DNA from: Pollenia angustigena
Lineage: Eukaryota; Arthropoda; Insecta; Diptera; Polleniidae
Reading direction: 5' to 3'
Assembly: GCA_930367215.1 (NCBI GenBank)
Contig: OV884056.1
Span: 278,548,067 to 278,612,066, forward strand
Length of the DNA stretch: 64,000 nt
Both the position numbers and the translations under genes were made by a program. Below the pieces are notes generated by a model. The model worked only from the letters and a program-made list of their open reading frames with translations. It was not told the origin of the DNA and did not search any database. Shown in pieces: positions 1-60,290 of the stretch; position 1 is the first letter of the stretch, and each line of letters opens with the position of its first letter.

Positions 1-1119
1 CTTTTTTTTGTTCAAATTTTGACCACCAATTAGGTTAACAACATTTTTGACACATGTTGTTTTATCTGCACTTTTTGTGCCCACATCACTTTTGGTTTTA
101 TTTTATTTGCAAATGTACGGTTTGTACGGTTCAAAAAATTTGTAGAATATTTGAGAAAAATGGAACACTCTTTGGGAAAAATTTGATATCATTTCAAAAA
201 AAACTACAGATTTTTCATTATCATAAAATATCTAAATAACTTCTCTACAGTTTAACTGATCTCATTCCTTGACAAAAAACAGCCATTGTTAACAATTGTT
301 AATTTATTTTAGTGTAAAATTTTTCAAGTTCACATTTTCTTTTGCCTTAAAGGGTAAGTTACTTTTATTTTTCTTTAAGAGCAACACTTGAACGGACACC
401 TTCACTTTCCTTTAACATTTAACTTTAGCATAAACTTTTGGTTTCGCTTTTCTTTAAAATAAAATAAAATTAAAAAAAATCAATTTAAAATTTTCTTTTT
501 TAATTTATAATATAAAATACATTTTATTAAAAAAAAAAATTTTTTTTAATTCATCTTTAATACAAAAATCTGTGTTTTCAATATTTCGCTTTGTTGTTTG
601 ATTGTTAAGAAAATTAACCGTTGTTTACGCGACAACAGATGGTAAGCAACTGTAACAAACTCTGGGATACGATTACAAATTTGAACTACAATGATTTTTT
701 TGTATTATTTTTTTGTTGGTTTTGTGGATTTTTCATCATCGCAGTTGCCGCTACTTACATAGATGTGTATATAAAAATACAAATCTACAACACAACTGAG
801 TAAAGTGTTGCATGTCTCCTCCAAAATTAAGAAAAGATTTTTATATAAGCAGATATTACGCGACACAAAACAAAAGCTGAAAAACTTTTTATACTCATAA
901 CGTAATTTTTTAGCGTAATAAATATCTATACTCAAATTACCCGTAACTTTGGGAAATTGTTGTGGTAATGAAAATTTTCTTAGATTTACAGTGACTTTGC
1001 GGGTCGCTACGGGGTTAAGTGCTTTGGTAGATTAATTTTATATATTTTCTAACGGATTTTATAATAATTTGAACCTTAATTAAAAATGTGGAAAAGATTT
1101 ACATGAACACATGCAATAT
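1..1119. other. AT-rich non-coding stretch
   Basis: No coding region, RNA gene or repeat structure is supported here. There are poly(A)/poly(T) runs around 455-550. The short open frames lack conserved motifs and run through homopolymers. Intron or intergenic DNA is the best description. Confidence 0.6.
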
Positions 1120-2640: not shown

Positions 2641-4776
2641 TAAATCGCTTGGCCCTAAGAAATCAAAGACTAAAAGATTTAAGCCTTTTTCCGGAATATA
2701 GTCTTTGTGCAGATAAAACATTTTTTAAGGTGCAATATTAAATTTAATCCAAACATATTTTTTTGCAATCAAATCATTCCATCAAATTTTATTGGAATTG
2801 GTCCACATTTGACCAAAGCTCCCATACAAACATCATTTCCGAAATAGCTTTTAATATCATAACTTCCTTTAAGATGTTGGTATATATACAATACAATTTA
2901 ACGACGTTTATGTTTACTTAAGTTACTATATCGTGGCAAACTGTTGTGCTGGTGGGTCCAGGATTGACCATAGGTCCTCCCTTTAGAAATTAAAGGCCAA
3001 GAAAATCTCATAAATATGTAAATATTTAGATAATATTCGGCCCAAACTCTTAATTGAGTTCAAACCTTAAAATTATGCTAATTTTGTGTTGGCGGGTCTG
3101 TGATAACTCATAAGTCGCAAATAGGGTTAACTCGCAAAAAGTTGTCAATTAATACTATGGGGAGGACATCATATGGTCAGGCTTGACTGGCTATACTTTC
3201 TTATTTGTTTTAAGTAACCTTTTCTCTGAGAATAGCAATTCTTTCTGACTCTGCTCCTATTTCGGTATAGAATTTTAAACATTTTTCAGTAAAACTTTTT
3301 CTTATATAGAATTCTAATTCTATGTTTCTTGATTCACTACATCCGAGTTTAGACAAGCGAACATTTGCAGGGAAAACATCAGGAATTTTCCTATGTTTTT
3401 TTATTCGCGGTCACGCAGACGAACATGCTGCCGGTAATATTCTGTAACTTTTATTGATTTTTTGTAAAAAAGCAAAGAAAATGTCAACAAAGAAAATATG
3501 CACAAAGCGTATCTCCGAGTAGCGGAAACAAAAACTATACTCACTTCCCCAACCGTAATGTGCAACCAAATTAAATGTTTCCCTGTCTAAATAAGTATGT
3601 ACACCTTAAAGGTCGGCTTTCATCCAGTATCCAAAAGCTAGGGTTTCCAGAATTAGTTAAAGTTAAGCAAAGATAGTTTCCTGCAGCAAACGGATGCCCA
3701 TAATCCCTCATAACCAAAATTTTGATGCAGCTCATTATTAATATGAAAATTCAACATTCATTGATTCATTCATCCATCTATATGGTCTTGGCTTTTGGTG
3801 TGTTTTTGTAGCGTAGTGTTTATATGCCGCGTTTTTGCCTTTTTTCCATTGATTTTTTTTGAAAGAGAAGGTGTTCGGGAGTGCATAACGCTGATGATCT
3901 CAAAAACAAACCATATTGTACATGTATGTATTACGTTGATACAACAAAACAAAGCAAACAAATGCTGTAAGTATTTAAACAATGTACATTTTACATTTTT
4001 GCAGCAGATACTCGCATCATAAACACACAGAGACAAACAGAAATTAAATGAAAAAGGAAAAAAGCAAACGATAACTTTCGTTTTCATTGGTGGTTAGGAA
4101 AACCGCTTAAAGAAAATTCCAAATGCCACTAAGAGCACAAGTAGTATCACACAAAAAAAAAGACGCAAAAAAATCAGAGAAAAAATCAAATGTTGCAACA
4201 AAACTATTTTGTAAGCCTTTTGTTTTCTCGTACTTGTGCTTGGATGATTGTACGAATGGATGAAATGAATGAGTAAATGAGTCTTGTTTGTTTTATGGTT
4301 AATGATGTTTTTAAACCACTTCAGTGTAATATTATGATCATAATGATGTTACGATTGGTATCCCAGTCAGCATACCTACATACAAACATATGTTGCAGCA
4401 TCAGCACCAGGTTTGTTGCTGCTCAAGACATTATAAAACTGCAGCCACTGCAATAACAAAAACCACTATAGGAAAATCAACAACAATCGTAAGATATAAA
4501 TAGGGAAGTTGATGATGGAAGTATGCTGCAATATATCATGTTTTATTTGGGTATTAAATGCATATTATCGTTACCATTTGATGCAACAGCAACAGAAACA
4601 GCATCAGAGCAATTGCTGTTACTGCTTATTGATATCGTATTGTTGTTGTTGTTTTTATTATAACTTTATTTTAGTTTTAAATCTTGTTCAGTTTATGATT
4701 TCATGCGGATGTTTAATCTCTATTGTGTTTGTTGTAGTATTTGTAGGTGTAGATAAATTAATATAATTTGTTGTTT
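2641..4776. other. Non-coding stretch without recognised element
   Basis: Mostly unique AT-rich sequence. Open frames on both strands near 3770-4090 mirror each other and are low-complexity. CAG/CAA-rich patches occur near 4390-4480 and 4580-4610. Nothing here is supported as a gene. Confidence 0.5.
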
Positions 4777-12806: not shown

Positions 12807-13048
12807 ATAGTACGCCTTAGCCCGTAACAAATTATGCTATTGTAATAAAATTTGGTACGTCACAGTTTTATAGCACTTAAAATCACACTGTTTAGTCTCG
12901 TGAAGATCTGTCCATAATTTACCATGGGCCCTATAAAAAGCCAGCTCTCGAACGAGGTCTAGTACGCGTAAGACCTCGGTTTTAGCTTTTACTTTAACAA
13001 TGTATTTATGCTTGAAGAAATTGCAAATTAAACATCATACTCGTACTT

Positions 13049-14244
13049 CATATACGAAAAGCGGTTGAACATATTATGAAGGATCAGATATTGTCATTTG
13101 TTCGCAATAGTATTGTTTCTTCGCAATATGCTTTTCGCCGTGGTCATAGTACTACATCTCTTTTACTTGGCCTAACTGATGACATCAGATGTCATTTGAA
13201 TGATAATAGGGTAGTGACCTTAGTTTCACTTGACTTGACTAAAGCATTTAATTCTGTTAACTTCCGAATTTTGATAAGGAAATTAAGGGAAATATTTAAT
13301 TTTTCCGCCACGGCTTGTAAGTTGATTTATTCGTATATGACGGGTCGTGTTCAGTTTGTAGATGTTAACAATGTATACTCTAATCTACTACATCTTACAT
13401 CTGGTGTACCCCAAGGCTCAGTTTTGGGACCCATTCTCTTCACGTTATACGTTTATGACTTATCAAGTTATATTGATAACCATATATGTAAATCATTTTT
13501 GTTCGCTGATGACGTATTACTTTTGTTTAATGGCGGGAAATCGGAAATTAATAATTTATGTTTAAATATCAATGATATTCGTCAACGTTTTCTATATTGG
13601 TCTAATGAAAATTGCCTATCTATAAATTCGTCAAAGACTAAAGCTCTTGCTTTTGGTTGAAGTGTCTAGGAATTTATTTAGATAAATGTTTAAACTTTGA
13701 GACTCATATTGATAACATTAGCTGGAAAATTTCAGGGTTAGTGCGGCAACTTTACTTTACGAATATTTATTTGCCACAACGAATTAAATTGCGTTTGGCT
13801 CATGCAGTTTTAATGCCACCGATCTAATATGGTCTTGAAGTTTTTTCTGGTTCAATGAATTATATAACCTCTAAGTTAGGTCATATCGCTAACACGGTTG
13901 TACGGTACGTTTATGGTGTTCGTAGGAATGATCACATATCTGAATATGTTAAACGCTTCATGGGCTGTTCTTTCGGAAATTTAATAACTTTACGTAACTT
14001 GGTGTTTTTCTATAAAATTATAAAAAGCGGGTTTCCCACGCAACTTTATTCCAAATTTCTTTTTTCCCATTCAACAAAGAACCCTCAAATTATATTGCCT
14101 AGAATTAACAATGCTTTATTTGAAAGGTCTTTTATTGTAAGAATTGCACGTCGTTGGAACACATTACCCATTGAGCTTCGTGTGTTTTCACAGTCAAATA
14201 ATGCCTTTCGTGTGAAAATTTTGGCTGTTCTTACGAACTTATAG
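13049..14244 (+). pseudogene. LINE reverse transcriptase pseudogene
   Basis: The first frame (13076-13660, readable from about 13049) contains 'SSQYAFRRGHST', 'SLDLTKAFNSVN', 'SGVPQGSVLGPILF' and the catalytic 'FADDVLL'. These are the central RT palm motifs. After 13660 the frame shifts, with an apparent deletion. 'LKCLGIYLDK' continues in another frame and is stopped at about 13827 (TAA). From 13855 to 14244 the C-terminal region reads cleanly to 'RRWNTLPIEL' and a stop. The endonuclease and the N-terminal RT fingers are missing. It cannot make an active protein. Confidence 0.8.
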
Positions 14245-23354: not shown

Positions 23355-25258
23355 CACAGAGGAGTATTTGGCCTGAAAAGCTGGCCAAAAAGGCAAAACT
23401 GAATTTTAAGAAATCTTAAGAACTAAGTACGCAGCTCGACAGACAACAATATTTTACATTATATTGTAAATTTTGAAGACTTTTAGTTGCGATTTGTAGA
23501 TCTGAGACCCTGCTAAAGTCAGGAAAGTGAAGAAAATTATATGAGATTTAAATGTTTTTTTTCGGTTTCTGGATGTTTATATGATATTTTTTTGCGGCTA
23601 AACGAATAAAGGTTTAACAAAGATTGTTTTTTTCGCTGAAAGGTTTGATCAAAAGTTATTTAAAAACGATAAAAAAATTTAAAATATGTTGAATATTCAT
23701 GTTGAAACAATTCGTTCAACAGCTAAAAAAAAACAAATTATACACTTTTCTTTTGCAAAAAAAGGAAAAGAAGAGGTTTTAAAAGGTGAGGTTAGCATGT
23801 CTACGAATTATGTTTGATACCACAATAAAATTTGGAGTCTCTAATTTTAGAAACCAAAAAAAAGTGTGCGCAAGTTTGCGCCATTATTTTTGACGATTTT
23901 TTTTTAAATTTTCACATTTCTTCTATTTTTGCTCATCGGGCACTTTTTCTTATACCTTTATATCGTCATAAACTTTTATGTATTTTGAATTATTGATTTC
24001 AACTGTTATTCACATCACTTTTAACACTTCACAATATTAATACCTGTCTATATGTAATTATAAATTGCAAAAATTCTTAATTATCCGCAATAGTTTTAAG
24101 GGAATGTCCCACACATCCCCATAAAAAATTATTTTTTGAAAAAATTGCTTTTTCCAAACAGAAATCGAATTTTTTGAATAAAATTGTTTAGTAAGGTAGT
24201 TCTTTTGGACTTTATATTTTTTTACAACTCAAAATTTTTTTTACATTAAAAAATATTTTCACTTAAGTAAACATTTTTCAAGTCGAGAGGCGCGGATTAG
24301 GATTTTATTTTAGACCCATGGTTTCTTCGGAGAATTTTCTTAGAATTTTAAGTAGATTACGTTTTTGCTATATGATTTTTAATTTTTTTTTATCCATACA
24401 AATCGACCCGCCCTAATGTACATACAGTCTGTCAAGAATGAGTTTAAACCTTTAAAATCAACATTTGTTAATTGAGTTTTGCGATTTATACCAACTTTTA
24501 TTCCTTAAGCTTCGTACAGACGATGGCCAGATCTTACAATATTGGTAAGCAGCGTTGCTTAAATTGCATTAAAATTGGCTAGAATGTCTTACAACTGTGT
24601 GAACATTGTAAGCTCATTTGTATTTGCAGATGTGCAAAATTAATGCATCTGACAATGGACCATTGTCAGAAAAATTTTGCTGTTGGCAACGCCTGCTTAC
24701 AATATTGTAAGATCTGACCATCGTCTGTACGAAGCTTTAGGAATGTGGCTTAATCTTAAAAATTTAAACTTTTTGGTTCTTAAATTTTTTTATTGCATGT
24801 TGAAAACAAAAAATTTGACGCATTTTGCATGTAAATTTTTTTTCGCCATTATATTTTTAATAACTCCAAAATAGTAATAGATATAAAATAAATGTGTATG
24901 GTTAAGCAGAATTTTCCGGTGCATCTTCTGATCCTCCTACTATTAAAATCGGAGAACACGTTTTCAAGTTTTGGCAAAATATATAAGGCAACCCAACGAT
25001 TAAGGGGGTGAAGTATGCCACGCCTTTAAAAGAAAATCCTCACGTACTAGAGAAAAACGGAAAACAGATTTGAATTAAGGGCATCAAAATTTTTTTGTTG
25101 CGCAGTGTACTTTTGTTGCGCAGTGTAATTTTTTCAAAATCTGCCACTAGACTTTTTATATCATACTACACCTAAAACTATCAAAAAACTAAAACTTTTA
25201 ATTCAAAAAACACGTTTAATAATTTTGGCCAGCTTTTCAGGCCAAATACTCCTCTGTG
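23355..25258. mobile_element. Element with CAC-starting TIRs and 5-bp target duplication
   Basis: The inverted repeats of about 36 bp begin CACAGAGGAGTATTTGGCCT and are almost identical at both ends (23355 onward, and 25258 backward). The direct repeat AGACG (23350-23354 and 25259-25263) is the target duplication. CAC-starting ends with 5-bp duplications occur in Transib. However, the heptamer CACAGAG departs from the usual form, and no transposase is present to decide. It may be a non-autonomous Transib-like element or another superfamily. It contains the foldback at 24500. Confidence 0.7.
24500..24744. mobile_element. Foldback MITE
   Basis: Long inverted arms: 'aagcttcgtacagacgatgg' then 'ccagatcttacaatattg' from 24507, mirrored by 'caatattgtaagatctgacc' and 'atcgtctgtacgaagctt' up to 24737. 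The outermost ATTCCT/AGGAAT also pairs. The loop contains further inverted words ('gcatctgacaatgg...ccattgtcag'). Non-coding. The target duplication could not be identified. Confidence 0.7.
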
Positions 25259-30424: not shown

Positions 30425-32685
30425 AAATCGTGCTAAATTTGAAAGTTTCGAGCGTTATTGTATAACGTAATAGTACCAATTCAAACGAAGGAAATGAGTA
30501 ACCGCCAGAAACCGTGGTTCACATCTGAAATAAAGCGCCTTACAGTAGATCATGACAACGCTTTCTCTCGATGGAAACGCTTTAAAACTGATAATCTACA
30601 CGAAAATTATCGCAATGCTAGAAAAATCGTAACCAAAACCATTAAGAACGCAAAATCTAAATACTACTCTGAAAAATTTATGAATTCTGTTAGCACTAAA
30701 AATACTTGGAAAACTATTAGGGAAATTGGAATCGTAGAAAATAAGAATAAGCAGGATAATAGTATATCGGATCCTTATGAATTAAATTCAAACTTTGTTA
30801 ATATACCCATGCCTCAAGCAGATCATACCCATTATATCAATTTTCATGCAACCAATCTCCCATCTAACCCTTTTAATTTTGAGTATGTTAGCCAGTTGGA
30901 TGTTCTCAAAAGCTGCCTTTCCATTAAATCAAAAGCTATAGGAATGGATAGTATACACCCAGCTTTCCTTAAAATTATTCTTCCGTCACTACTACCATTT
31001 ATCACTCATATTTTCAATAAAATAATTATGGCAGGCACTTATCCACTAAGATGGAAATAGGCAAAAATTATTCCAATACCAAAATCATCCACTGAATATC
31101 GGCCCATAGCTATTTTACCTTATCTCTCAAAGGCTTTCGAGAAACTTTTACATGAACAGATAACCAATTATATAAATGATAGTAAATTATTGACCGATCA
31201 ACAATCTGGCTTTCGGGCCAAACATAGCTGTATTACTGCTCTAACTGATGTAGCAGAAGATCTTAGAAAGGAAATGGACGATAGGTGCGTTGCATATTTA
31301 GTACTGTTGGATCATTCAAAGGCTTTTGATACCGTTGACCACACAATACTTATTCAAAAACTGGAGAAAATGATGAATTTTTCATCAACATCCATTAGAT
31401 TGATTGATTCATATCTTAAAGATCGTGTCCAGTGTGTTGAAACTAGTCCTTCAACTATCTCAAACTTTCTTCCTGTTGGTAGGGGTGTTCCTCAGGGATC
31501 CATTCTAGGTCCTCTCCTCTTCTCCATTTACGCAAACGATCTTCCTGAACAGTTGCTGCATTGCAACATTATAATGTATGCCGATGACGTACAATTGTAC
31601 ATAAGTAACAAAAAAGGGAACTTAGATGAATGTACTGCAAGACTAAATCAGGACTTACAACGGGTTTCACGTTGGGCTGATGTTAACGGGTTAAGTTTAA
31701 ATCCTACCAAATCGAAATGCATTGTAATACATAAAAGAACACAGAAAATTATTGATTATCCCAACATTTTTATTAAAAACCAACGGATTGAAATCGTAGA
31801 TAAAGCAAAAAATCTTGGTGTAATTTTTAATAACACTTTAACCTGGTCTGATCACGTTATAGCTGCCTGTGGTAAAACATATTCGATGCTAAGAACCCTA
31901 TGACCTACTCAATATTGCACCCCATTGAAAATACGCTTATTACTTGCTAAGACATATTTGATACCAATTTTAACCTACGGATGTGAGATTTTTGCAAGTT
32001 GTGATGAAACCAGTAAATCTAAATTGACCGTCACATATAACAACATTGCAAGGTACGTTTACGGGATCAGAAATTATAACATAAATGGTATTTACATTAG
32101 TATAACACCTTACTCTAAAAAAATATTCGGGGTACTTTTTGAAGATTTACTGAAAATAAGAACTTTAGTATTTCTTCACAAAATTATAACCACCCGTGAG
32201 CCAGGTCATCTTTTTAATCGTTTACAATTTAGTCGACTCAGAAGAAATAGAAATTTAATTCAAATCAGACATCACACATTAATATCTGAATGGCAATTTT
32301 TCATATTTGCAATACGTCTTTGGAATAATATTACTAATCCAACAATAAAAGAAATCAGCAATGTGTTACAATTTAAGAAAGAAATATTTAAATATTATTC
32401 GTAGTCAACAAGTTTGTTTATAGTTCGGTATAATTCTATAGTTCAATATTTTTTGATTTTTTATAAATGTATTTATGATATTTTGATATGTAGTTTTTCG
32501 TTATTTATTTGTTTGGTTTAGTTACAATAATTTTATTTATATCGATTTTGTAATAACTATACCTAGACTTAAGTTTATTATTTTTCATTTTCCAAAATAA
32601 CATCATAAGATTTCTACTGTTTAAGACTAATGTTTTGTTGTAGAAGTTACAATTTTTTCTTAAATAAATAAATAAATAAATTGTC
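30425..32685 (+). mobile_element. 5'-truncated LINE with well-preserved ORF
   Basis: It contains the reverse transcriptase ORF (30458-32404), about 250 bp of 3' UTR and a 3' tail of AAAT repeats (about 32659-32681). The 5' end is truncated upstream of the RT, and the endonuclease is absent. Directly after the tail (from 32687) begins a dispersed repeat copy. The good preservation of the frame suggests a fairly young insertion. Confidence 0.7.
30458..32404 (+). pseudogene. LINE reverse transcriptase, two nonsense codons
   Basis: One reading frame stays open across about 1950 bp except for TAG at 31058-31060 and TGA at 31901-31903. Before the RT a basic linker 'KPWFTSEIKRL' is seen. RT motifs in order are 'AIGMDSIHPAFLK', 'AKIIPIPK' and 'EYRPIAILPYLSKAFEK' (31061-31150), 'QSGFRAKHS', 'LLDHSKAFDTVDH' (first catalytic Asp), 'RGVPQGSILGPLLF', the catalytic 'MYADDVQLY' (about 31576) and 'KNLGVIF'. 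The C-terminal domain has 'IARYVYGIRNY' and 'IRLWNNI'. Both stops differ by one base from TGG. The C-terminal pattern resembles CR1/jockey-group LINEs; exact family not determined. Confidence 0.85.
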
Positions 32686-32686
32686 A

Positions 32687-33761
32687 TACCCTCCACCACA
32701 ATTACTTGTGAAGAGGGTATACTAAGCTTGTTATTCCGTGTGAAACTTTTTTATTATTCATCTCAGACCCCATAAAGTATATATATTCTGGGCCTTTGAG
32801 TAATTCTAAGTCGATTTAGTCATGTCACGCTGTAAAATTTCGTGAAGATCCGTTCATAATTTACCCTAGGCCCCATACAAGCCCTACTCCCGAAAAGAGT
32901 GAAGTACACCTACAACACCAACCACCAATGCTATCATAACAAATTTTGGCTCGTCACAGTTTTATAGGACTAAAAATAACACTGTGAAGTTTCGTGCAGA
33001 ACGGTCTATAATTTACACTAGGTCCTATACAAACCCTACTTCCAGAAAACAGTTTAGTACGCCTAAAACCGTAAAAAATAATGCTATCGTAACAAAATTT
33101 GGTACATCAAAGTTTTATAGGACTAGAAATAAGACTGTGAAATTTCGTGAAGATCCGTCTATAATTTACCCTAGGCCCCATATAAAGCCCACTCTGGTAA
33201 AATAATTAAATACGCCTAAAACCGTAGCAGATAAAGATATTGCGGTTAACTTTCTGCCAGCTTAGCTTCATATGGCCAACAAAAAATATTATGCAATTTT
33301 ATGATATACGGTCTCTAATTTACCTTAGATCCCATTTTAGCAGCTTTCTGAAATTCACTGCAAACGCTTAAACTAATTGCCCCTCTGTATTGAAATTAAG
33401 GGTTTGTAATACCAGAAATCACTCTGCAGAATTTTGGGATGATTGGTTCATAGCTGACCATGGCTCCAATATAAATTGCCCTCCTGAAAATCATTTAAGT
33501 TCGGCTTAAACTGTTACGAATCATGATATTTTGCTCAAGCTATTTAAAATTGCTAAAAAAAGCATTAAACTTTCTAATTGTCGGTCAATAATTTAATATA
33601 TGTAGGTCTGAACCGCAACCAATTTTAATGCAGATATCTGTTTTTATAATGATAATAATAATAAATATACATCATACAGACATACTTCTAAAGCATTCGA
33701 ACTGTCGGTGGAGGGTATCAAAGATTCGGCATTGCCGAATATAACACTCTAACTTGTTTTA
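32687..33761 (+). repeat. Dispersed ATACCC-family repeat, uninterrupted copy
   Basis: It begins 'ataccctccaccacaattac' with 'gaagagggtat' closing a terminal hairpin. It continues with 'catctcagaccccataaag' and about two 153-bp units (32850-33190), then a more diverged interior. It ends 'gtcggtggagggtatcaaag' plus a hairpin ATTCGGC...GCCGAAT and 'ctctaacttgtttt'. The subterminal CCCTCCACC and GGTGGAGGG words are inverted. No transposase or RT is encoded. The 73-codon open frame at 32984-33205 reads the tandem unit. Confidence 0.7.
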
Positions 33762-37122: not shown

Positions 37123-40002
37123 TTATGTGTGGCTTGATTTAAGCAAAATGTTTCTTTATTTAAGAAAATTTTACTAAATACGAACGAAAGAGTTTAAATC
37201 AAGAATTATTATGAATTTCTTGTTTTAACCTTAGAGGGAAGCGAACTGATACCAAAGTAGTCCCGTGATAGGTCTTTGAGGGTAGAGATCGGTTTTAGTT
37301 CTAACACTTTATATGAATAAGCCTATCACTTTTACATGGGGTTGTCATTGGAGGGGGTCAATTGACACCATTTGACCAGTCACGCATCTATTCTCAATGG
37401 ACGTGTTTAGTTTCAGTTATTTCATTGTAGTTTTATTTCGTTACAATGTATTATTTCAATAAAACAAGTCATAGATTAAATTCAAGAACCAAATTTTAGA
37501 AAGTCCCAAAAATTGTATCACAGCACCGGTGAAGACTGTACTGTAATTCAATACGTTTTGTACCTTTTTGTTCTTCATAAAACAGTTGAATAATTGGTTC
37601 TCCTTTCACTGGTCATGAGATGTTTCTTTTTGTACTTGTTCTATTTTCACTAGTCCCAGGACCAGTCCGTTAGACCAATTGACACAAATGGCCCGCAGGG
37701 AAGAAACGAAATTGACAACTTTAGAAAATACTCTTAAAATTTTAAGCCTGTTGCCAAAGTATTTTAGGTAAAGTGTTTAATTTTTTTAATTACCAGTTAC
37801 GTAAGAAAGTACCAATTATATTTTAGTACCAAATTAGTATTGTACCACAGTTAAATTTCCTTAAACATCTTCACTTAGCCACTTCCACAATTTTTGAAGA
37901 TTTATGTATATGTGTGTGCATGTGGCAAGTTGTAAAGTATACACGTTTGTATATTGTTTAGTTTTAGTTTTATTTTTGCAACATTATTTTATTGCTTGAT
38001 TGTTGTTTGAATTTGTTTAACATTTCTAAGCAGGCAGCAACTTGGTATTGCTCGAACTCAATAATTAAAATTAAATACACAGCAACACACATGTACGAAC
38101 TTACACAAAAGCGGCAGCAGCAGCAGCAAAGGCAGCAGTTTTAATGTCTATTGTGTTTTTCCTCTTCAAATTGTTGTTAAAATTTTCCTTCCTCTCTGTG
38201 CAGGTATTTAGTAAATTGTATGTAGGTACAAAATACTTGTTCAAGTTTAGTTGGAGTATGTGATGTTGCTTATTTTTTTTTTTCTTAATTTGATTTTGGC
38301 GCCGCTTAACTACTTATTTGTTTAATAATAAAATAAAATTAAATAAATTTTTATTGAATTAAGTGAAGTTGGTGTCGTGCGATTTTCTTCAAAAACACAC
38401 AATTGCCAGATAATTTTTCAAAAGAGAGGAAGTTTGCTTTTCAATATTTAACGTTTAAATTATAAATTTAATGAAATTATGTATTTGTTAGTTTGTTTGC
38501 TGTTCATAAATTATTTGATTATTTTATGTGTGTAAGTGTGTTATTAATTACCGTTTTCATTAAATTGAACTTGTGCCATGAACTTGGCTGAACTTGGTTT
38601 TTTTTTTTAATAATTTTCTCACAATAATTTAAAGAAAGAAAAAAAAAGCAAATGCTTTGTTTGTCGAGATTTGTATTTGAATTAAACATTAATTTACGTT
38701 AAAAAGACGTACAAATGAAATGTAAATGTTTGTTTAACAATTCTTTTAAGAGGAATTTTTTGTCTGAGTTTAAGTGGCCAAGATTGGAATGGCATTTGAT
38801 TGTTAACGATAAATTGTGAACATTAGTTTTTTTTTTGGTTTAAAGAGAAAAATATGCAAACTTTTTAAGGACTTAAGAAATCAATTTTTTAATTTTTATC
38901 AAATTAGATTTATGTATATCTTATAATTTATATAATAACGGGTTGGAAATAAAATAATCTTTTGACTATTTAAAATCCGAAACAAGAAATATGTTGTTGA
39001 TTAACATGATAACCACTCCATAGACTCGCGAGCATGTCAATAATCGTATTTTTCACTCAGACACGGTTGGCAATTCACATGTATATTACAACTTTGTTCG
39101 TTTCAAAACATCAGACTATCATCAGTCTCTGCGACCGCACACAAGCACATAATATGTTTGTGTGCGTGCGTTCGGGGCTTTCTTAGTTCGAGGCTTGGTT
39201 ATCACTGCCCTAGATCGATGAAACTTGGCAGATATATGTGTTATTGTCATAGACAGGTAAACCTTAAATATAAATAAAATCGGACAAGGAGGAAAAGGCC
39301 CCCCCCCAAAGAACTAATCCAACGTCTGAAAAATTCAACTTTTCTTAAAATTTCCCATACTTTTGTTTGGCAAATGCAACTTTTAACGTCGGCGAAAGTT
39401 AAAAAACCTAAAATTGGACCCAGGAGATCGTAAAATTATACTTTTCGCCCCCGCCCCCTTTTGTGGGCGGTTACATAAAATAATATTTTTTAAAAGATTT
39501 AAATATTAAAAGAATTTTCGATATTCTTTAATTAGGCTTGAGTTAATCAAATTTAATTTTCATTAAATTATTTTCACTGAGGGAAGGAATTTTACAACTT
39601 GGAATTTTTATTAAAATTTATTGATAATTTTTCTTGGCTGAGCTGGGATTTGAAAAAAAAGAAATAGATTACTTACGCCATAATACTATAAAAATTAAAT
39701 TTTTTAACTTTTATGGGCAGGGGGAGGTATTCCTCAAAACCCACCCCCCGGAAAGAATCTGACAAACATTTTTTTTTTGCTAATTTCCAAAAAATATTAA
39801 TTTTTAAGATTTTATGTGACTTTTATGTATTTCATAGTATTTAATTTTTCTGCAAATACTTAATTTATTCGTAATTATAACTGATCTATAAAAGTAACAA
39901 CAAATTTTATTTAAAATAATAACAACTAATTTATTTAAAATAACTTCTCTTTTGCACTAAGATGATGATGAGTGCCATGGTTCTTCTTCGTCTGTTTTTT
40001 CA
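37123..40002. other. Long non-coding stretch
   Basis: No gene supported. A CAG-repeat patch at 38112-38140 is short. Between 39190 and 39760 there are phrases such as 'gatcgatgaaacttggcaga' and 'aaaatcggacaagg' next to long C and G runs, of the sort found inside fly Helitrons, but no terminus was located. The rest is AT-rich and unique-looking. Confidence 0.4.
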
Positions 40003-40074
40003 AAAGTAAGTACAGGTGGAAGCATAAAAGAAATTGCTATTTTCGTAAAGTGTAATAACTTCTTTTTGGCTTTT

Positions 40075-40369
40075 GTAGTCGTTTTGAAGACGAACTCCCA
40101 AATATAGGTATTGTCACTGTTCCTTCCAGCCATTTGGCATGCATGCTTACAAATCGATCATTTTTTCTTTGTGCTGAATGACAAAATATTTTAAAAAAAT
40201 ATTTGAAATCCTTTAATCACTGATGTACTTCTGATATGTCACTATCTCCCTGACATTTTGAAATTTCGCACAGTTTTCTAACTAAAAATTTTAATTTCTC
40301 TTCAACGAGTTTAGCATTACATTCATGTATAATTTGGAATAACTCTAATTTCGTATACACTTTTTCCAT
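40075..40369 (-). pseudogene. Possible Transib-like N-terminal relic
   Basis: On the minus strand a frame starts at ATG 40369, reads MEKVYTKLELFQIIHEC and goes on with one TGA after about 50 codons. It then continues in the same frame through 'HSAQRKNDRFVSMHAKWLEG' and 'TVTIP' to 'KRLQKPKRSYYTLRK' and a stop. The block 'KWLEGTVTIP' plus a later K/R-P-K/R-S-[YF] matches the layout 'NWLEGTFTIKF...GRPRKSF' in the Transib protein at 54719-56425. No catalytic region follows. The resemblance is short, so this is a suggestion only. Confidence 0.4.
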
Positions 40370-40379
40370 TTTACTCTCG

Positions 40380-41460
40380 AAGCTTCAAAATGGTTCTGAT
40401 AACAATTTTATGCAATAACCACAATACATAGTAAAAAAAAAAACTAAGGACCTGGAGGTCAGATTTGATTTTTTATTAAATATTATTTTTGTTGTTAATA
40501 ATTTTGAAAGTTATGCAAACCAGGTCCATTTATTTTGCTCCATAAAATAACGTTATTTAGCTGGCGAACAGGTTGTTAAAAACCGTTACTTACTGTTTCG
40601 CATATTCCTTTTTTTACACAGGTAATATTAGTCTTAGATGTAATTATTTAAATAAAAAAAATCTACGTACAACCAATACACTTTATGACTGACGAAAGGG
40701 TTTCTATCATATGTACCTATGCAAGATGAGCAAAAACAGAAAAAAATTGAAATTTTCAAAAAATCATAAAAAATGGCGCAACAACGCGCACCTTTTTTTT
40801 GAATTTAAAAGTAGAGATTTCAAATTTTATCGTGATGTTAAAGCTTTTAATTGATACAACAAAACACACTTTCAAAAACCTTTTATTTTTTTTTTTTTTT
40901 TTTATAAAAAAGTGAACAAAAAAATTCGCTTTTTTTAATTTCGAACGAATTTTTTTATCATAAAAATTTCTAGTCAAATTTTTCTAAAAATGTTTATAAG
41001 TAGCTTTTAATATAGTCCTTCACAGAAAAAAAAAAAATCTTAATTCGTTTACTCACAAAAAAATATATTGTAAACCTCCCACAACCGTAAAAAGTCAATG
41101 CACACGCATGCAATTTTATCAACTTTCCTGAATTTAACAGTGTCCCAAAACCACAAAATTCACTATACGATGTAGAACTTGTCTGTCGAGGTGCGTACTT
41201 AAATTTTTACATATCTTAAATTTAATTTTTTGCCTTATGTCCGGCTAGATTGGCAAAAAAAACCCCTATGTGCAGCGGTTAAATAGCATCAGCATACAGG
41301 AACAGACACTACAAAGCATACCTTCACCCTGGTTAACAAGCAAAATTTATTCTCCAACTCTGCTTCCTTATGATCTCGTACCCAGCGATTTGGGTTAAAA
41401 AAAAATGCAGCCATCACGTGATTGCCAAAGATGCTTAATCATTTCATGATATTTCCTAGT
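40380..41460. other. AT-rich stretch, no gene
   Basis: Poly(T)/poly(A) runs (40880-40905, 41025-41036). Frames here are homopolymer-driven. Nothing recognised. Confidence 0.45.
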
Positions 41461-42138: not shown

Positions 42139-42397
42139 CTGAACTGCGATCTTAAAATAGAGCTTCATGTAATGGCTGCACCTGTTTTTTTTTTTTTTTT
42201 TGTTTATTATTTACGCTATAGCTAGCAGTTTTTTTCAATTGCCGGCTTATCGGAGACATGTTTGATGAACTTCTTCCTTAACTAGTTTTAGTAAACAATT
42301 TATATTAATTTTCTTTAAAAATTTGGTTTATTAAAGAAAAAAATTTATTGCTTTGTATTCTTGCAAAGCATTTAAGCTTTTAAAGTTGTTGCTTTGG

Positions 42398-43850
42398 TTT
42401 CGTTATAATGTGCTAAATTCCCATTTCATACTATTGACAAACTGAAGTTTGTTGTTGATGGGATAAGCTATACCTATGCGCATTTTACTGGTTGCTTAGG
42501 CCAGATCATCAGGAAACTTCATCCAAAGATTTCAGAAAAACTAAAGATATTATGCAAATAAAACGGTTAATCGAATAAGAATTATAAGTCCCAGTTTCAC
42601 TTGTAACAATATCAAAGCTTAAACAAACACAACAACAATAAACAGTGAGTTTATCTTTTCTTACAGCCCCGACCACAATTGGTTGATTTTTTGTCAACTA
42701 TAAATGTAGTTGTAAGTGGGTAAAGAAAAAACAAAAATAAAACAAATTACTTTATTTTATTTTGCCAGTTCAGCTTTTTAAACTGCCACATGCATATTAG
42801 TTATCAAAGTTTTTCTTGGGATTCAAAAATTAATTATCAAGGTTTCGTTATAATGTGCTAAATTCCCATTTCATATTATTGACAAGCTTATCCTATCATA
42901 GTATTGATAGGATAAGCTATTCCTATGCGCATTTTACTTGTAACAATATCAAAGCTTTAACAAAAACAACAACAATAATATTATTGGAAAGCATTTAAAA
43001 AAAGTTTGGCCTTAAATTCTTTAAGAAAAATGTTTGCTTTTTGTTTTCCTGAAGATAACTTTTTCACTTTATTTATTGTATTATCTGCAGTGTTTCTACT
43101 TTGTGTAGAGCGTGGGTAATTTCGTATAGGTGAAGATATTGTCACATGTAAAACTGGGGCTTATAATTCCATTCGCTTAACAGTTTTATATGAATAAAAT
43201 ATCTCAAGTTTTTCTAAAATCTTTGGATGAAGTTTGCTGACGATCTGGTCTAAGCAACCAGTGACATGCGCATAGGAATAGCTTATCCCATCAACAATAA
43301 ATGTCAAGTATTTTTATCAAGAATAAAAACTGGGAATTAAGCACGAATAACAAAATCTTTTGAAATTAAAATTTTGTATTCCCAAAGAAATTACTTTTTG
43401 ATAATAAACAGGCAAGTGCACGGCCTAAAAAAACACTTAATTGACAACATGCTTTTGAAAGTTGTTGTTGTTTTCATTTTGTTTTTCTTAACCTACTTAC
43501 AACTACAATTAATGTTGGGAGAATTTCAACTAATTGTAGTGGGGAATGTAAGATGAGATAAACTCACTGTTTATTGTTAATGTTTTTTGTTTAAACTTAG
43601 GTATTGTTACAAGTAGAACTGTTGCTTATAAGTCTTATAGGTTTAACAGTTTTGTTTGGTTTGATATCTTAAGTTTTTCTAAAATCTTTATGGATGAAGT
43701 TTCCTGATGATCTGGTCTCTGCAAACAGTGAAATGCGCATAGGAATAGCTTATCCCATCAACAATAAATGTCAAGTGTTTTTATAAAGAATAAAATCTGG
43801 GAATTAAGCACGAATAACAAAATCTTTTGAAATTAAAAAGATTTGATTTC
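42398..43850. repeat. Dispersed repeat family, forward and inverted copies
   Basis: Shared blocks include 'acaattaatgttgg', 'gataaactcactgtttattg', 'tcctgatgatctgg', 'gcgcataggaatagcttatc' and 'gggaattaagcacgaataac'. They occur in forward orientation at about 43240-43370 and 43500-43830, and inverted at 42410-42720 and 42840-42960. One more forward copy lies at 59970-60290. The arrangement looks like several insertions of one MITE-like family in opposite directions. No protein is encoded. Confidence 0.55.
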
Positions 43851-47440: not shown

Positions 47441-47699
47441 GAAAACACGCTCACTTTCGAAAAACTCAAAAGAAATCAACAAACTTGGTGTCAAATTGCT
47501 TGTAGTTATCCTAAGCAGTTTGGGATTGAAATTCAGCAAAATCGGTTCAATAGGATCTGAGCTATGAATCAAAATGTGGAACCACCACCTAAAAAAAATT
47601 GATAATTTTGTTACAAAAAGTAACATAAATGGTGGAAAAATGCACAGAATGATATAAGATTTCGCAGCAATTCGTTTTATTCAACTGGAAATCACGCTG

Positions 47700-48540
47700 T
47701 GAAATTTCGTGAAGATCCGTCAATAATTTACCCTAGGCCCCATATAAGCCCTACTCCCGGAAAACAGTATATTAAGCCTAAAACCCTAACTAGCAATGCT
47801 ATCATTACAAATTTTGGCAAGTCACAGTTACATAGGACTAGAAATTAAACTGTTAAGTTTCGTGAATATCGGTCCATAATTTACCATAGGCCCCATATAA
47901 AACCTACTTCCGGAAAACAACTTAGTACGCCTAAAAACGTAAAAAATAATGCTATCATAACAAAATTTGGTACATTAAAGTTTTATTGGACAACAAATAA
48001 AATTGTGTTATTTCGTGAAGATCGGTCCATAACTTACCCTGGGCCCCATATAAACCCTACTCCCGGAAAACAGTTTAGTACGCCTAATACCGTAAAAAAT
48101 AACGCTAGCGTAACAAAATTTGGTACGTCACAGTTTTTTAGGACAAGAAATAACACTGTGAAATTTCGTGACGATCGGTCCATAATTTACCTTGGGCTCC
48201 ATATAAACCCTACTACCGGAAAACAGTTTAGTACGCCTAAAACCGTAAAAAATAATGCAATCATAACAAATTTTGGCTCGTCACAGTTTTATAGGACTAT
48301 AAATGATACTGTGAAATTTCGTGAAGATCGGTACATAATTTACTCTAGGCCCCATAGAAACCCTACTCCCGGAAAACAGTTCAGTACACCTAAAACCATA
48401 ATTAATAATGCTATCATAACAGAAATTGGTACGTCACAGTTTTAAAGGACTAGAAATGACGCTGTGAAATTTCGTGATGATAGGTCCATAATTTACCCTA
48501 GGCCCCATATAAACCCTTTTACCGGAAAACAGTTTGGTTG
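47700..48540 (+). repeat. 153-bp tandem array (about 5.5 units)
   Basis: The phrase 'tttcgtgaagatcggtcc' and its variants recur at 47704, 47857, 48009, 48163, 48316 and 48469, so the period is 152-154 bp. Each unit also has 'ggccccatataaaccctac', 'ggaaaacagtttagtacgcc' and a 'gtcacagttttatagga' phrase. Because 153 is a multiple of three, one frame stays open for 146 codons (48005-48445) as a 51-residue repeated peptide. Similar units lie in the copies at 32850 and 12190-15790. Confidence 0.85.
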
Positions 48541-48897
48541 CCTTAAACCATAATTAATAACAAATCGTCACAGTTTAAGATTATAATAACATCATACAAA
48601 TATTACTCCTTAAACATTCGAACTGTCGGTGGAGGGTATCAAAGATTCGGCACAGCCGAATATAGCACTCTAACTTGTTTTTTATACATTTTACCTTAGC
48701 CTTCCGTTGGAAAGCAATGAGGTATATTGAATGTACAGAAAAATTTACAATTATTAGACACCAGCAGAATGTAATGCATTTTCTGGCCCGCTACGGCCGT
48801 CGTCAGCATTCTTTGTGTCTCACTGGATAGTGTTGCTTTATAAATTGAATGTATTTAACTCAACTATTTTTAACAAATAGAAACTGGGAATTATTAT

Positions 48898-54312: not shown

Positions 54313-54317
54313 CGGCG
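54313..54317. repeat. Transib target-site duplication, left
   Basis: CGGCG, identical to 57944-57948. A GC-rich 5-bp duplication of the CGNCG type is characteristic of Transib insertion. Confidence 0.9.
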
Positions 54318-54356
54318 CACACTGGGGATTTTTGTATGGAGGTGAGGAAAAAAGTA
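54318..54356 (+). repeat. Transib left end: heptamer, 23-bp spacer, A-rich motif
   Basis: Heptamer CACACTG (54318-54324), spacer 54325-54347 (23 bp), then AAAAAAGTA (54348-54356). It resembles a 23-type recombination signal (CACAGTG, 23 bp, ACAAAAACC). This end lies downstream of the transposase gene. Confidence 0.8.
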
Positions 54357-54378
54357 TATTTTTCAAAAAATATAATGA

Positions 54379-54708
54379 TTTCATTACAAATTTAGTTTTA
54401 TTTATATAGTAATACACAAAAGTAATCAAAATAAAGAAAGTTAGAGAAATATATATCGTTACCTACAATGTAAAAAGCCCTAACTAACAAAAAAAATGTA
54501 AATGATTTTTTTAATTCATTATTTATTTTAAATCTATTTTTAATTTCATCACAAACTTAGTTTTATTTATATAGTTATATACAAAAGTAATCAAAATAAA
54601 GAAAGCTAGACAAATGTATATCGTTACCTACAATGTAAAAAGCCCTAACTAACAAAAAATTTAAATGATTTTTTTAATTTTTAATTTATTATTTATTTTA
54701 AATCTACT
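54379..54708. repeat. 165-bp tandem duplication in the Transib 3' region
   Basis: Two copies (54379-54543 and 54544-54708) share 'agttttatttatatag', 'aaaagtaatcaaaataaaga' and 'cctacaatgtaaaaagccct' with few differences. They lie between the transposase stop and the left terminus. The event duplicated non-coding DNA and leaves the terminus intact. Confidence 0.85.
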
Positions 54709-54718
54709 TTTTAATTTA

Positions 54719-56425
54719 TTATTCTAAAAGAGCCTTAACTTCGTCGCTTATATCACTATGCTTTTTCTGGCTAAATGAAGGAGTCAAGTGTGAGGTCATG
54801 GGATCTGATGTTACCATCATTCGGTGCATAATATCTTCGTTTGTGGCAATTCGACTGCATTTTCTGGAGTGTCTAAGGCGATATTTTTTATAGTCTTTGT
54901 TACGACTTTCCTGAGCCTCTTCGGATAATAAGACTACAGGAAAAATACACTTTTCAATTATATATTTTCCATGAATCAGAATTTTGTGGAGTGTTGGTGG
55001 CATATTGTACCACTCGTACAGTGCAACAAACTTTTTTGCCGTCTCCAGACAAAAATCACCAAATTTTTTCGGATCTAGTGCCTCGGTAATGGTTATAGCT
55101 TCGAGAATTGTTGAAAACCTCTTGATTATGTCTTCATCTAGACCCGTGATTTCGGAAATTAAAGCAGGATTAGCAAAGAATCTTCGTGACGTATTTCCTG
55201 AATTTGTCGTACCAGAGCCTTGTTTAACAGTATCAACCTGTATTCCAATTTTCTCTTTAATTTCACGCTTTATCAAACATTTTCGGGCTTCTCTTATCGG
55301 ACGAGTATTTGAGTCGACTCTTCCACGTTTAAATTCAAGATTGTAAGCTACATGCAAAAGACACTCCATCAGCTTAATACGCGCATGAAGTGGTGACATA
55401 CCAAATTGCAGTGCTTGTTCATTTACGGGCATAGCTTGAACTTCTTCGATTTTATTCATCTTGGATGTTGTTGCTCCACAAATAAAACAAGAAGATGCTG
55501 CTGGTGTCTCTGTTACTGATTGTGCTGTCTTGCCGTCAATCATTGTAAAATATAATTCATGTTTAACTTTAAAGTTACGATTATTTACTGTTAACTCAAA
55601 TTCTTTTAGTTGAGATATCTCCTCATCGACTCTTCTCTTTTCTTCTCGTATAACTTGAGGTGTCTCTTTAACGTACGCAAACTGTAGTGTTCTACAATAT
55701 TGTGTGGAAGAAGGTTTATTGTTGTTCCATACTAATGATAATTTTAGTGGTACAACTGATGTCATATATAAATGAGAGTCAGAAATTTGATCATCTGAAA
55801 ACCTCTGTTGGTATTCGCTTTGACCAGATGCCCCATCACATCCCCACTTAAAGTACATTGTTAGATTTCCGCTTTCAATATTATTTATTTCCTTTACTGA
55901 TTTGGTCTCTAGGACTCTTTTAGCAGTATGATCCAACAGATTTTGCAGAGGTACACTGCCTGAACTTTCAGTGATAGAAATTTCTAGAGGATAACTGTTA
56001 GTTTTTTCTTTCGTGAGTTGTTTGTATGGTACGAGTATGTTATATCCTTCATTTTGTAACCAATGCATTAGATACTCGTATTTTTCTTTTGTAAGTTCAA
56101 GCTTTGTAAACATCCCCAAAGTTTTTAATGTACAAATTTTGTGGTTGGTTTTTGAAATATTAGAAGAAAAATCAATTACTTCTTGAGGAAACATAGAACG
56201 TACTTCATCCCTTTTGTATCGTTTGGCGCGATCACAGCACTCCTCAAACGATTTGCGGGGCCGACCAAGTGCAGAATTGGTAGAACATTCAGCCTCAGTA
56301 AACTTAATTGTAAATGTGCCTTCAAGCCAATTTACATTCTTTTTTTCAAATCGCGACTTCGTACGGTTAGAATCCTGCCATCTTTGTTTGAAGTTATAGT
56401 AAAAGTGTTTATATATTGTATCCAA
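54719..56425 (-). CDS. Transib transposase, RAG1-like DDE recombinase
   Basis: A DDE/RNase H-like transposase that would cut at the element's ends via hairpin intermediates; family knowledge from Transib/RAG1. The frame has 568 codons. Residues 50-75 hold the Transib-type 'GRPRKSFEECCDRAKRYKR'. Catalytic candidates are D197 (KWGCDGASGQSEY), D297 (FTMIDGK) and E506 (EEAQESRNK). Zinc ligands are C313/C316 (CFIC) and H480/H485 (LHKILIH), with the same spacing as RAG1 C727/C730 and H937/H942. 'SGNTSRRFF' (409-417) matches the RAG1 GNFARKL block. The first codon here is TTG, not ATG, so the true start lies upstream in another frame (see 56426-56556). The stop TAA overlaps an AATAAA poly(A) signal (54715-54720). 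Confidence 0.9.
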   Translation of the reverse strand: MDTIYKHFYYNFKQRWQDSNRTKSRFEKKNVNWLEGTFTIKFTEAECSTNSALGRPRKSFEECCDRAKRYKRDEVRSMFPQEVIDFSSNISKTNHKICTLKTLGMFTKLELTKEKYEYLMHWLQNEGYNILVPYKQLTKEKTNSYPLEISITESSGSVPLQNLLDHTAKRVLETKSVKEINNIESGNLTMYFKWGCDGASGQSEYQQRFSDDQISDSHLYMTSVVPLKLSLVWNNNKPSSTQYCRTLQFAYVKETPQVIREEKRRVDEEISQLKEFELTVNNRNFKVKHELYFTMIDGKTAQSVTETPAASSCFICGATTSKMNKIEEVQAMPVNEQALQFGMSPLHARIKLMECLLHVAYNLEFKRGRVDSNTRPIREARKCLIKREIKEKIGIQVDTVKQGSGTTNSGNTSRRFFANPALISEITGLDEDIIKRFSTILEAITITEALDPKKFGDFCLETAKKFVALYEWYNMPPTLHKILIHGKYIIEKCIFPVVLLSEEAQESRNKDYKKYRLRHSRKCSRIATNEDIMHRMMVTSDPMTSHLTPSFSQKKHSDISDEVKALLE

Positions 56426-56556
56426 AATTTCACATGCTCTATATCGTTTAAGCCAACGTGCAATTGTTGCAAAAACTGTTTTAATTTTGTTCTGTCTTTG
56501 TCAAATTCCAGAAGCTTCGAGCATAAAACCCCATGAGAAATAGAAAAACTTTCCAT
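56426..56556 (-). pseudogene. Transib transposase N-terminus, out of frame
   Basis: An ATG at 56556 opens a frame (MESFSISHGVLCSKLLEFDK onward) that runs to 56332. It overlaps the main transposase frame in a different phase. The main frame can be extended upstream from 56425 through 'TIARWLKRYRACEI' to a TGA just before 'QRQNKIK' at about 56500. A single indel in the A/T-rich stretch near 56460-56500 would account for this. Either this copy has lost its start through a frameshift, or there is a small intron or assembly error. Confidence 0.6.
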
Positions 56557-56599
56557 TGCCGTAAAACTCTTGGTCCTTAGTTTCAGTTATAATTAAATA

Positions 56600-57915
56600 A
56601 TTTCGCGTTCGCCAGCACTTGTTGAATGACAAAAATCGATCAGTGAACACCTATAAATACTACGTAAGTTTCAACATTTTACTGAAAGGTACTTATGAAT
56701 TCGCGCATCTTTTAAGGGAGTCTATATACCTGTTTCGTGTGCGTTTAAAATTTTTCGAAACATTCTAAAACATGACCACTCATAAATGTGGGTGCAATTT
56801 GTGTAAAAAAATCATGCAGGTAGCCAACGAAAAAAACCCAAATAATTAAAAAAGTGCACTTACCTTTTTTCCTTTCAATTTTCCACGCACATTTATTACC
56901 GCTTATTACTTTGCTACCGCAATCATAAAAATCAAATAACCTTTTGTTTATTGCTTTTTTTTTTTTTTAATTCTGAGAATCATAAAAAAAGTCATAAATG
57001 TTTTTGCAAAGAATTTTGTGCATATCTCGAGCAAATTTTTGAAATGCATACCTTCACTTAATTGTGAATAAAAGCGAAACGCGTTCATCGATTTTCATGA
57101 TTTATGTCTCATTTTTTTTCATAGGTTATGCGACTTTACGTGAAAGTAATAAAACTTGAAACTTTTTTTTACTGTTTTGGATTTTTTATGAATTAAAAAT
57201 AAAAAATTTAAATTTTTTGGGCAAAAAATATTTTTTTTCTTCATACATTTATTTATAACTGCGAAACTGTTGCTTATGTAGCAAAATGTTATATAAACAG
57301 ATGAAAGTAATTGTAATTCTTGATTTTTCTAAATTTTTTTCAGCAAAATCCGACTAGTGGTTCTCGAGTTATGTTAAACAAAAGAGCCTTATCAGAATTG
57401 AGTCCCGAATCAATCAGCTGAAAAATGTTGTACTGTGTAATGCAAAAACTTGAGAGGTGGCACCTGGTGGCACTTGAAATTGATTAATAATGTTAAAACA
57501 GATATAAGACAATGTATTCGGTGTGATTTCAAACTGAGGAAAAGTAAAGAAAAAATTCCAGGTCCAAATGTTTGGAGAAAAATGGGATTTTTGTTATATG
57601 TCCATAAAAATACAAAAAAAAAAAAAAAAGTTAAGTCTGCAGATTTTTTTTTTTCAATTTTAGTATACTGAAATATACTACTTTAAATAGAAAAAAAAAG
57701 AAAAACGTTAGCTCACATAGTAAAATAATATTCGTATTTAAATTCTTAGGTTTAAATTAAGTTGGTTCGGTAAAACACACAAGTTCTGAGTTTGAGACGG
57801 ATATAAAAAAAAACTGGCAGTCAGATCGGAGTAAATCTGTTTGATTTGATTGTACCATTTAGTCTAAAATTGCAACATATCACTGCATATTGCTTGAAGA
57901 CTATGTTGACAATTT
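56600..57915. other. Transib 5' non-coding region
   Basis: AT-rich DNA between the gene start and the right terminus. No second gene (no RAG2-like frame) is present. The longest frame is 73 codons and repetitive. The promoter should lie here but no TATA/Inr pair is convincing. Confidence 0.5.
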
Positions 57916-57943
57916 GACTTTTTTCCGCGAAATCCCCAGTGTG
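57916..57943 (-). repeat. Transib right end: heptamer, 12-bp spacer, A-rich motif
   Basis: Read inward on the minus strand: heptamer CACACTG (57943-57937), spacer GGGATTTCGCGG (57936-57925, 12 bp), then AAAAAAGTC (57924-57916). The A6GT core is identical to the left end but 11 bp closer to the heptamer. It resembles a 12-type recombination signal. Confidence 0.8.
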
Positions 57944-57948
57944 CGGCG
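57944..57948. repeat. Transib target-site duplication, right
   Basis: CGGCG, identical to 54313-54317. Confidence 0.9.
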
Positions 57949-58858
57949 CACATTGGTTGAAGAGTGGCCAAAACTCATTTTTTTCATGTTCGCCGATTTG
58001 GATAATTTTTTGGTATTTTGTTGGCAGATATCAGAATATTATGATTCCGTAATATTAGGCTGATATATTTATTATTTGTTTGGATAGACACGCTCGAAGT
58101 TCATATATGTTCGCTTGTTTAAAATGGCATGCAAATTTACTGTGTATTCAATCTTTTGGTACAATCACAGTAAACTTATCATTTGACTTTGTTGTATATT
58201 TTCGTAAATGACAATTGTCAAAGATGAGATTTGCATTAAAAAAAGTTGGAAAAAGTGCCATATAAAAAATTTCGTAGAACAAAATATAAACAACATCAAA
58301 ATTTCAATGTTCATCAACTTCAATAGGCTGTATCTTTTTAGCGCTGTGAAGCGCTGTTTAACGAATGATGTCAAATTACAGCTTGAAGTCTCAGCTAAAA
58401 GTTAAAAAAAAAATTCAGCTGCACATATTTGCACTTTTCCAAAAAAAAAAAAAAAAACAGTAAAAACTATAGAGTGATAAAGTAACAAAACATGAATTTT
58501 CGTTCATGCTTGTTGTTGTTGCCATAATTCTTAACTGTTTAAAATTATTGCAAAATGTAATTTACATACCAGTCAATAGTGTTAATTATACATTTCATTC
58601 TTGAAAAAAACATAAGTTTCAATTGAATTTGAATTGTTGTTTACTAATTTACATTAAATTGGCAAGTGCAGTGATAAGTGGTGTATTATAAAGTGATATC
58701 AAAATTTTATTTTATTAATTATGTAAAATTTAACAATTTCTTATTTCTTATTCATGTTTTTTCTTTTTTTTGCTCTTAATTTTCTAAAGAGAAAATTTTA
58801 TTTTTAATTTGCTTTAGAGAAAATTTCGCTCTTTATTTTATTTAAATCATATTTTAGA
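57949..58858. other. AT-rich stretch, no gene
   Basis: Unique-looking DNA with A-runs (58440-58456). No supported feature. Confidence 0.45.
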
Positions 58859-59639: not shown

Positions 59640-60290
59640 ATAAAAAGGTGGCAGAACTACGAAAGATGACGATTTTTTGTTCTTGCATTTTTTGTCTAGG
59701 TTCATGTCAAAGTTGTGTTTATGTTTACAAAAAGTCCACGTTTTGTGCTGTGATTATTGTATCTTATTGAAGTTTTTGATAATTTTAAATTAAAATCAAT
59801 AAGATATTGACCATAATTAAAAATTGGCTAAAAATGTATTTATTTCATCACGTTCAGCGGCACGCTTGGATTTTTGTTCAAAGTATTTTTTGACGTAAAC
59901 GGTGATATAACTTCCATATTTGTTGTATTTGTTGCTGCAACGATGCCACCTGCTTATTCCACCATTCTTACAACAACAATTAATGTTGGAAGAATTCCAA
60001 TCAATTGTAGTAGGGAATGTAAGAAGAGATAAACTGTTTATTGTTGATGTTTTTGTTGAAACTTTGATATTTACAAGAACAACTGTTGCTTATAATTCTT
60101 ATACGTTTAACAGTTTTATTTGGTTTAATATCTTTAGTTTTTCTAAAATCTTAATTGATGCAGTTTCCTGACGATCTGGCCTAAGCAACCAGTGAAATGC
60201 GCATAGGAATAGCCTTTCCCATCAAAAATAAGTTTCAGTGTTTTTATCAAGAATAAAAATTGGGAATTAAGCACGAATAACAAAGTTTAT
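59640..60290 (+). repeat. Dispersed repeat copy (family of 42398-43850)
   Basis: The part from 59964 ('acaacaattaatgttggaag') to 'gggaattaagcacgaataac' (60258) matches 43500-43820 closely. The preceding 300 bp have no counterpart seen. Non-coding. Confidence 0.55.

Follow-up and report, generated by a model that had tools for sequence, protein, structure and literature searches.

One 23-type and one 12-type end in a Transib family of Pollenia angustigena

The window analysed here, a stretch of 64,000 nucleotides of the fly Pollenia angustigena (C1:278548067-278612066, C1 being contig OV884056.1 of the 1.37-Gb assembly), contains at 54318-57943 a transposon whose two ends consist of a heptamer, a spacer and an A-rich nonamer-like block, the spacer being 23 bp long on the left and 12 bp on the right. 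Such ends resemble the signals of variable, diversity and joining (V(D)J) recombination, which likewise have a heptamer, a 12 or 23 spacer and an A-rich nonamer and are handled by RAG1, a protein of the same fold; relative to the V(D)J consensus, the nonamer matches at 5-6 of 9 positions and the heptamer at 6 of 7. The question raised by this locus is whether the asymmetry is an accident of one copy or a property of a family, and whether it bears on how the ends are paired. The sequence-only reading had called the element, here assigned to a family termed F1, a Transib, and this is borne out by the match of its transposase to HzTransib of Helicoverpa zea (E=1e-114): it is a member of the Transib superfamily, with a DDE transposase related to HzTransib and RAG1. 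Its parts are the following.

54318..57943, no strand assigned, 3626 bp: Transib element of family F1, both ends present
54313..54317, no strand assigned: left target-site duplication CGGCG, read directly
54318..54324, plus strand: left heptamer CACACTG, read directly
54325..54347, plus strand: left spacer, 23 bp, read directly
54348..54356, plus strand: left nonamer-like block AAAAAAGTA, read directly
54355..54659, plus strand: sub-terminal direct duplication, 140 nt aligned, 87% alike, offset 165
54719..56556, minus strand: transposase gene, Transib, single exon
57916..57924, minus strand: right nonamer-like block AAAAAAGTC, read directly
57925..57936, minus strand: right spacer, 12 bp, read directly
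57937..57943, minus strand: right heptamer CACACTG, read directly
57944..57948, no strand assigned: right target-site duplication CGGCG, read directly

Direct reading of both ends confirmed what had been claimed of them, namely CACACTG-23-AAAAAAGTA on the left and CACACTG-12-AAAAAAGTC on the right with a common A6GT core and 14 identical bp, these being the outermost 14 bp. Once the right end is aligned with an 11-bp gap, the match extends to GG plus AAAAAAGT, and the 10-bp block GGAAAAAAGT is the same at both ends with an offset of exactly 11 bp, the sequence just inside being less alike. As a separate observation, the host DNA past the right duplication reads CACATTG (window 57949-57955), which is heptamer-like and is followed by 12 bp and CCAAAACTC; this is probably chance.

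In order to gather other copies, as the sequence-only reading had proposed, the whole assembly was scanned for end patterns. The pattern CACACTGN{20,26}A6GT gave 270 matches against 87 for its reversed control, the N{9,15} version of the CACACTGN/A6GT pattern gave 569 against 74, and the 30-bp left end with at most 3 mismatches gave 605 against 0. The first 20 of 45 family places among the C1 matches listed, picked by their 23-end and hence subject to selection bias, were then read. In 19 of these 20 the partner end was located by script, each time with a 12-bp spacer and a matching 5-bp duplication, and the twentieth (L083), read by eye, has a 12-bp end with an altered first heptamer base and matching flanks. 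Perfect 5-bp duplications are present in 20/20 elements (the 19 fetched copies plus the window copy); they are GC-rich and CGNCG-like (C in 18/20, G in 16/20, a mixed position, C in 16/20 and G in 20/20), with A before them in 13/20 and T after them in 13/20.

Because picking copies by the 23-end is biased, ten more were picked by transposase, as the first ten rows on C3-C5 among the protein matches listed. Both ends are visible in 8 of the 10, all of them 23/12 with matching duplications, and the remaining two show the 12-end only within the short stretch fetched, no 23-end being found there. Facing ends at most 8 kb apart on C1 were also paired among the matches listed, the input being 88 of the 100 listed N{9,15} matches (12 non-family ones dropped) and 86 of the 100 listed 30-bp left-end matches (14 beyond C1 263.5 Mb left out). 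This yielded 57 pairings, all 12/23, which join 55 distinct 12-ends to 57 23-ends, the 12-end at 89.0 Mb facing three tandem 23-ends; no like-with-like element was found within 8 kb among these C1 matches. A further 33 12-ends and 29 23-ends were left unpaired because the listings contain exact matches only. Among four unpaired 12-ends that were fetched, three have a 23-type partner (22 bp in L101), and for L102 no partner was found within 4.2 kb. Two facing 23-ends 12.7 kb apart, considered as a like pair, were ruled out as such, each having its own 12-end (first base altered) and matching duplications.

The asymmetry is thus a property of the family across independently inserted copies: 23/12 spacing is kept in copies with intact duplications, and equal spacers, which the sequence-only reading had named as a sign of chance deletion, were found in none of the F1 copies read. 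Loss of A6GT at one end had been named as another such sign; A6 is kept, and variation affects the seventh base of the nonamer, in the 23-end of a second subfamily described below. Orientation is equally constant, the 23-end lying 3' and the 12-end 5' of the transposase gene in copies keeping gene sequence. The ends start with CAC in a heptamer-like sequence, except for three 12-ends with an altered first base (L083, L160 and L161; C to A or T), whose duplications still match.

How often such a layout would arise by chance was computed from 200,000 draws of random segments of the AT-rich window (GC 31.5%). A6GT occurred at both inner ends with a frequency of 1.15e-4 and with spacings of precisely 12 and 23 in a single one of the 200,000 draws (5e-6, a rough figure), and the loose version, A5 at 12+-1 and 23+-1, had a frequency of 1.8e-3. 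The question of chance is, however, moot because the family-wide genome data show the same layout.

Pairwise distances in 19 F1 copies have a median of 0.8% and a maximum of 2.3%, and 49 of the 71 transposase matches listed have no internal stop, the list favouring the best matches. Because of this low divergence and the many stop-free transposase matches, F1 is, judged from sequence, a young, high-copy family that may be active. A second F1 subfamily, 3-10% diverged from the young one, was reached via the unpaired 12-ends; its left end is AAAAAAATA after 23 bp (22 in L101), and it shares the 12-type right end. Within this AAAAAAATA subfamily, L100 and L101 are missing much of the transposase gene and L103 retains most of it. 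The sub-terminal repeat is doubled in the window copy and single in L100, L101 and L103; as a mark of the young subfamily the doubled form was ruled out by L160, which has the AAAAAAATA end of the other subfamily and yet is doubled. One odd copy, L091, is a composite F1 element of 6438 bp in which a 23-end and a 12-end enclose two transposase stretches that overlap; it is made up of L096 coordinates 1-3563 followed by 762-3650, and its duplications match.

Two further Transib families, F2 and F3, were found by a protein search of the genome with P0106. Their transposases are about 37% identical to P0001, the nearest relative of F1, and no family nearer to F1 than F2 and F3 was found; a search with P0004 listed 71 matches with the best candidates scored, all at 52-54% identity, as expected for F1. 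The F3 ends are perfectly symmetric over 36 bp (CACATAG-23-ACATTA), and at least 45 rows among the matches listed have an open frame of about 683 aa at nearly equal score; to judge from its sequences, this Transib family has expanded very recently, in a burst. Both ends with matching duplications were seen in L105 and in 7 of 10 further F3 copies (ten plus-strand rows among the matches listed), the other three (L140, L144 and L146) showing the right end only, which in L140 is one T short, and L104 is without the right F3 end. F2 has the ends CACAGAG-23-CCAAAA, and its members mostly carry stops. The two ends of L107 are alike at 35 of 36 bp and symmetric, with duplications agreeing at 4 of 5 bases. 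Of six further F2 copies, two are symmetric, L148 having matching duplications and L158 unlike flanks; L154 has matching duplications and a deletion inside the right end, and one end only was seen in L150, L152 and L156. At L106 ends were looked for and not found.

The terminal repeats of F2 and F3 both extend to position 36 in a 7+23+6 layout; their long spacer, like that of F1, has GG as its last two bases, and the duplications are of 5 bp with a make-up similar to that of F1. Both of their ends are therefore of the 23 type, whereas F1 has one of 23 and one of 12. Asymmetry is accordingly not needed for Transib transposition in general, because two symmetric families have inserted in the same genome. 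F3 has also left traces in the window itself: an internally deleted relic at 39208-41272 (minus strand), 84-91% identical to a full copy, with a CACATAGGGG end at 41272 and including the fragment of an N-terminal domain at 40046-40384, and an older piece at 23355-23937, which matches the initial 581 bp of F3 at about 71% identity.

In the window copy the transposase gene is interrupted by a frameshift, located within about 56443-56452, and shows an in-frame gap of 7 residues near 55733. In its 568-aa frame (54719-56425) the catalytic D, D and E lie at residues 197, 297 and 506, the triad being assigned by the HzTransib numbering of PMC6941560. HzTransib is 42% identical to the P0001 model over 471 aligned residues. 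Structure matches for P0001 mostly span residues 137-604 only, and the solved HzTransib chain starts at profile position ~143, so that the N-terminal segment of F1 is absent from that chain. Within this segment GRPRK aligns with the GGRPR region of RAG1, in a weak profile match (12.3 bits, i-Evalue 0.4). As a hallmark of asymmetric families the N-terminal segment was ruled out, symmetric F3 having a comparable one. V(D)J recombination has RAG2, whereas no second open frame of at least 80 aa (ATG/GTG/TTG start) that could be a RAG2-like gene was seen in 56560-57943 or the rest of the window copy, a spliced gene not having been searched for; open frames of at least 80 aa in that copy are the transposase frame and two antisense to it.

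Unequal 12/23 Transib ends are already known, and F1 adds another family. The sequence-only reading had asked for this to be checked, and such asymmetry has indeed been published for Transib5 of Drosophila melanogaster and for Transib2, N1, N2 and N3 of Anopheles gambiae (PMC8355894, citing Kapitonov and Jurka 2005), and asymmetric ends more generally in PMC9435367, where one Transib subgroup is described as all asymmetric and the other as mixed. F1 is like these elements, compared by description only, in having 12- and 23-like spacers between heptamer and nonamer-like block; the copy number, duplications and sister families given here apply to the Pollenia genome. HzTransib also makes a 5-bp duplication (PMC1852546), but its ends, unlike the asymmetric ones of F1, are described as symmetric and as scarcely or not at all nonamer-like (PMC8289069). 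ProtoRAG of amphioxus shares with F1 asymmetric bipartite ends (27/31) and 5-bp duplications (PMC8289069) and differs in its two genes, RAG1L and RAG2L, and in its end sequences (PMC8289069, PMC7204232); it prefers its asymmetric end pair (PMC8289069). Autonomous Transibs are usually present in one or few copies (PMC4411706), unlike F1 and F3 here. Views on how the 12/23 rule arose lie between two poles: an ancestor already asymmetric, or a symmetric ancestor to which RAG2 contributed the rule (PMC8289069, PMC8355894). A literature search, with most subscription papers outside it, returned no description of the F1 family and no 12/12, 23/23 or 12/23 assay of a Transib transposase on its own ends. 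No DNA relative of F1 outside the source genome was confirmed in viral contigs, genome contigs, phages or plasmids; 71 viral-contig stretches have the outer 14 bp, and in none of them does an A5 run lie within 50 bp inward.

Taken together, the anatomy and the copies show that a segment bounded by a 23-end and a 12-end is inserted by cut and paste, duplicating 5 bp of target. The reading considered rather probable is that the ends of F1 are heritably unequal, that the inner block is read by the transposase, that the short end arose by the loss of 11 bp, and that synapsis favours a long end paired with a short one. The transposase would cut at the CAC of each heptamer and would also read the inner A-rich GGAAAAAAGT block, perhaps through the N-terminal segment that aligns weakly to the nonamer-binding region of RAG1. 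A 23-type end would have become the short end by losing 11 bp, about one DNA turn, and the inner block would therefore stay on the same helix face; by analogy with ProtoRAG, the synapse would then work best between unlike ends. That F2 and F3 have symmetric 7+23+6 ends makes it probable that the short end is a 23-type end contracted by 11 bp.

Several points weigh against this reading. No copy tests like-with-like pairing, and the F1 copies are uninformative on whether like pairs fail because descendants of one master look alike and would be 23/12 anyway. That the symmetric F2 and F3 have inserted alongside F1, and that F3 possesses a similar N-terminal segment, means that Transibs as such carry no pairing rule. 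In the absence of RAG2, RAG1 is reported to have no 12/23 preference (PMC8355894), and taken by itself the match to the RAG1 nonamer domain is weak. As to the contraction, F2 and F3 are distant outgroups, and PMC9435367 puts asymmetric ends at the Transib ancestor, the opposite polarity. A bolder reading, rather doubtful, is that a Transib with one gene and no RAG2 acquired a 12/23 rule of its own when one of two symmetric 23-type ends shrank by one helical turn; if true, a symmetric transposon can give rise to synapsis of the 12/23 type, without RAG2 or vertebrates. F1, a young 23/12 family with intact genes and a large, clean set of copies, stands in one genome beside the symmetric F2 and F3, which makes the origin of the 12/23 rule directly testable.

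A possible alternative, unlikely yet to be taken seriously, is that the asymmetry is heritable and mechanically irrelevant, the transposase reading the outer 14-16 bp only and the inner block being a remnant of an older symmetric repeat. Protostome RAG-like transposons probably depend chiefly on their outermost 15-17 bp and are affected rather little by asymmetry (PMC7204232), and the conservation of the spacers says little in copies as young as the 19 compared. Non-majority letters number 1/722 in the left end, itself selection-biased, and 1/513 in the right end against 139/30830 in the gene, so that the ends are only somewhat less varied. What speaks for a role of the inner block instead is its identity at both ends under a shift of exactly 11 bp beside less similar inner sequence, its place in F2 and F3, whose repeats likewise end at position 36, and the retention of A6 in the other F1 subfamily.

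It is improbable that the unequal ends mark left versus right for another purpose, such as ordered binding or damped sister-copy synapsis, with no strict pairing rule; the constant position of the 23-end 3' and the 12-end 5' of the gene fits this idea, as do other transposons known to have unlike ends. Chance deletion in one copy retains practically no probability, being refuted by the F1 copies, which wherever read with two ends are asymmetric (one with 22 instead of 23), and having nothing in its favour after the genome search.

Elsewhere in the window, related tandem arrays of ~153-bp units lie at 32825-33240 and 47674-48560, the second with a 198-aa stop-to-stop frame. Open frames at 13016-13660 and 30443-31903 (both plus strand) resemble, by their motif, pieces of reverse transcriptase of putative non-long-terminal-repeat retrotransposons. 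An interspersed repeat family, about 74-87% alike and occurring in both orientations, is represented at 42396-43838 and 59967-60284.

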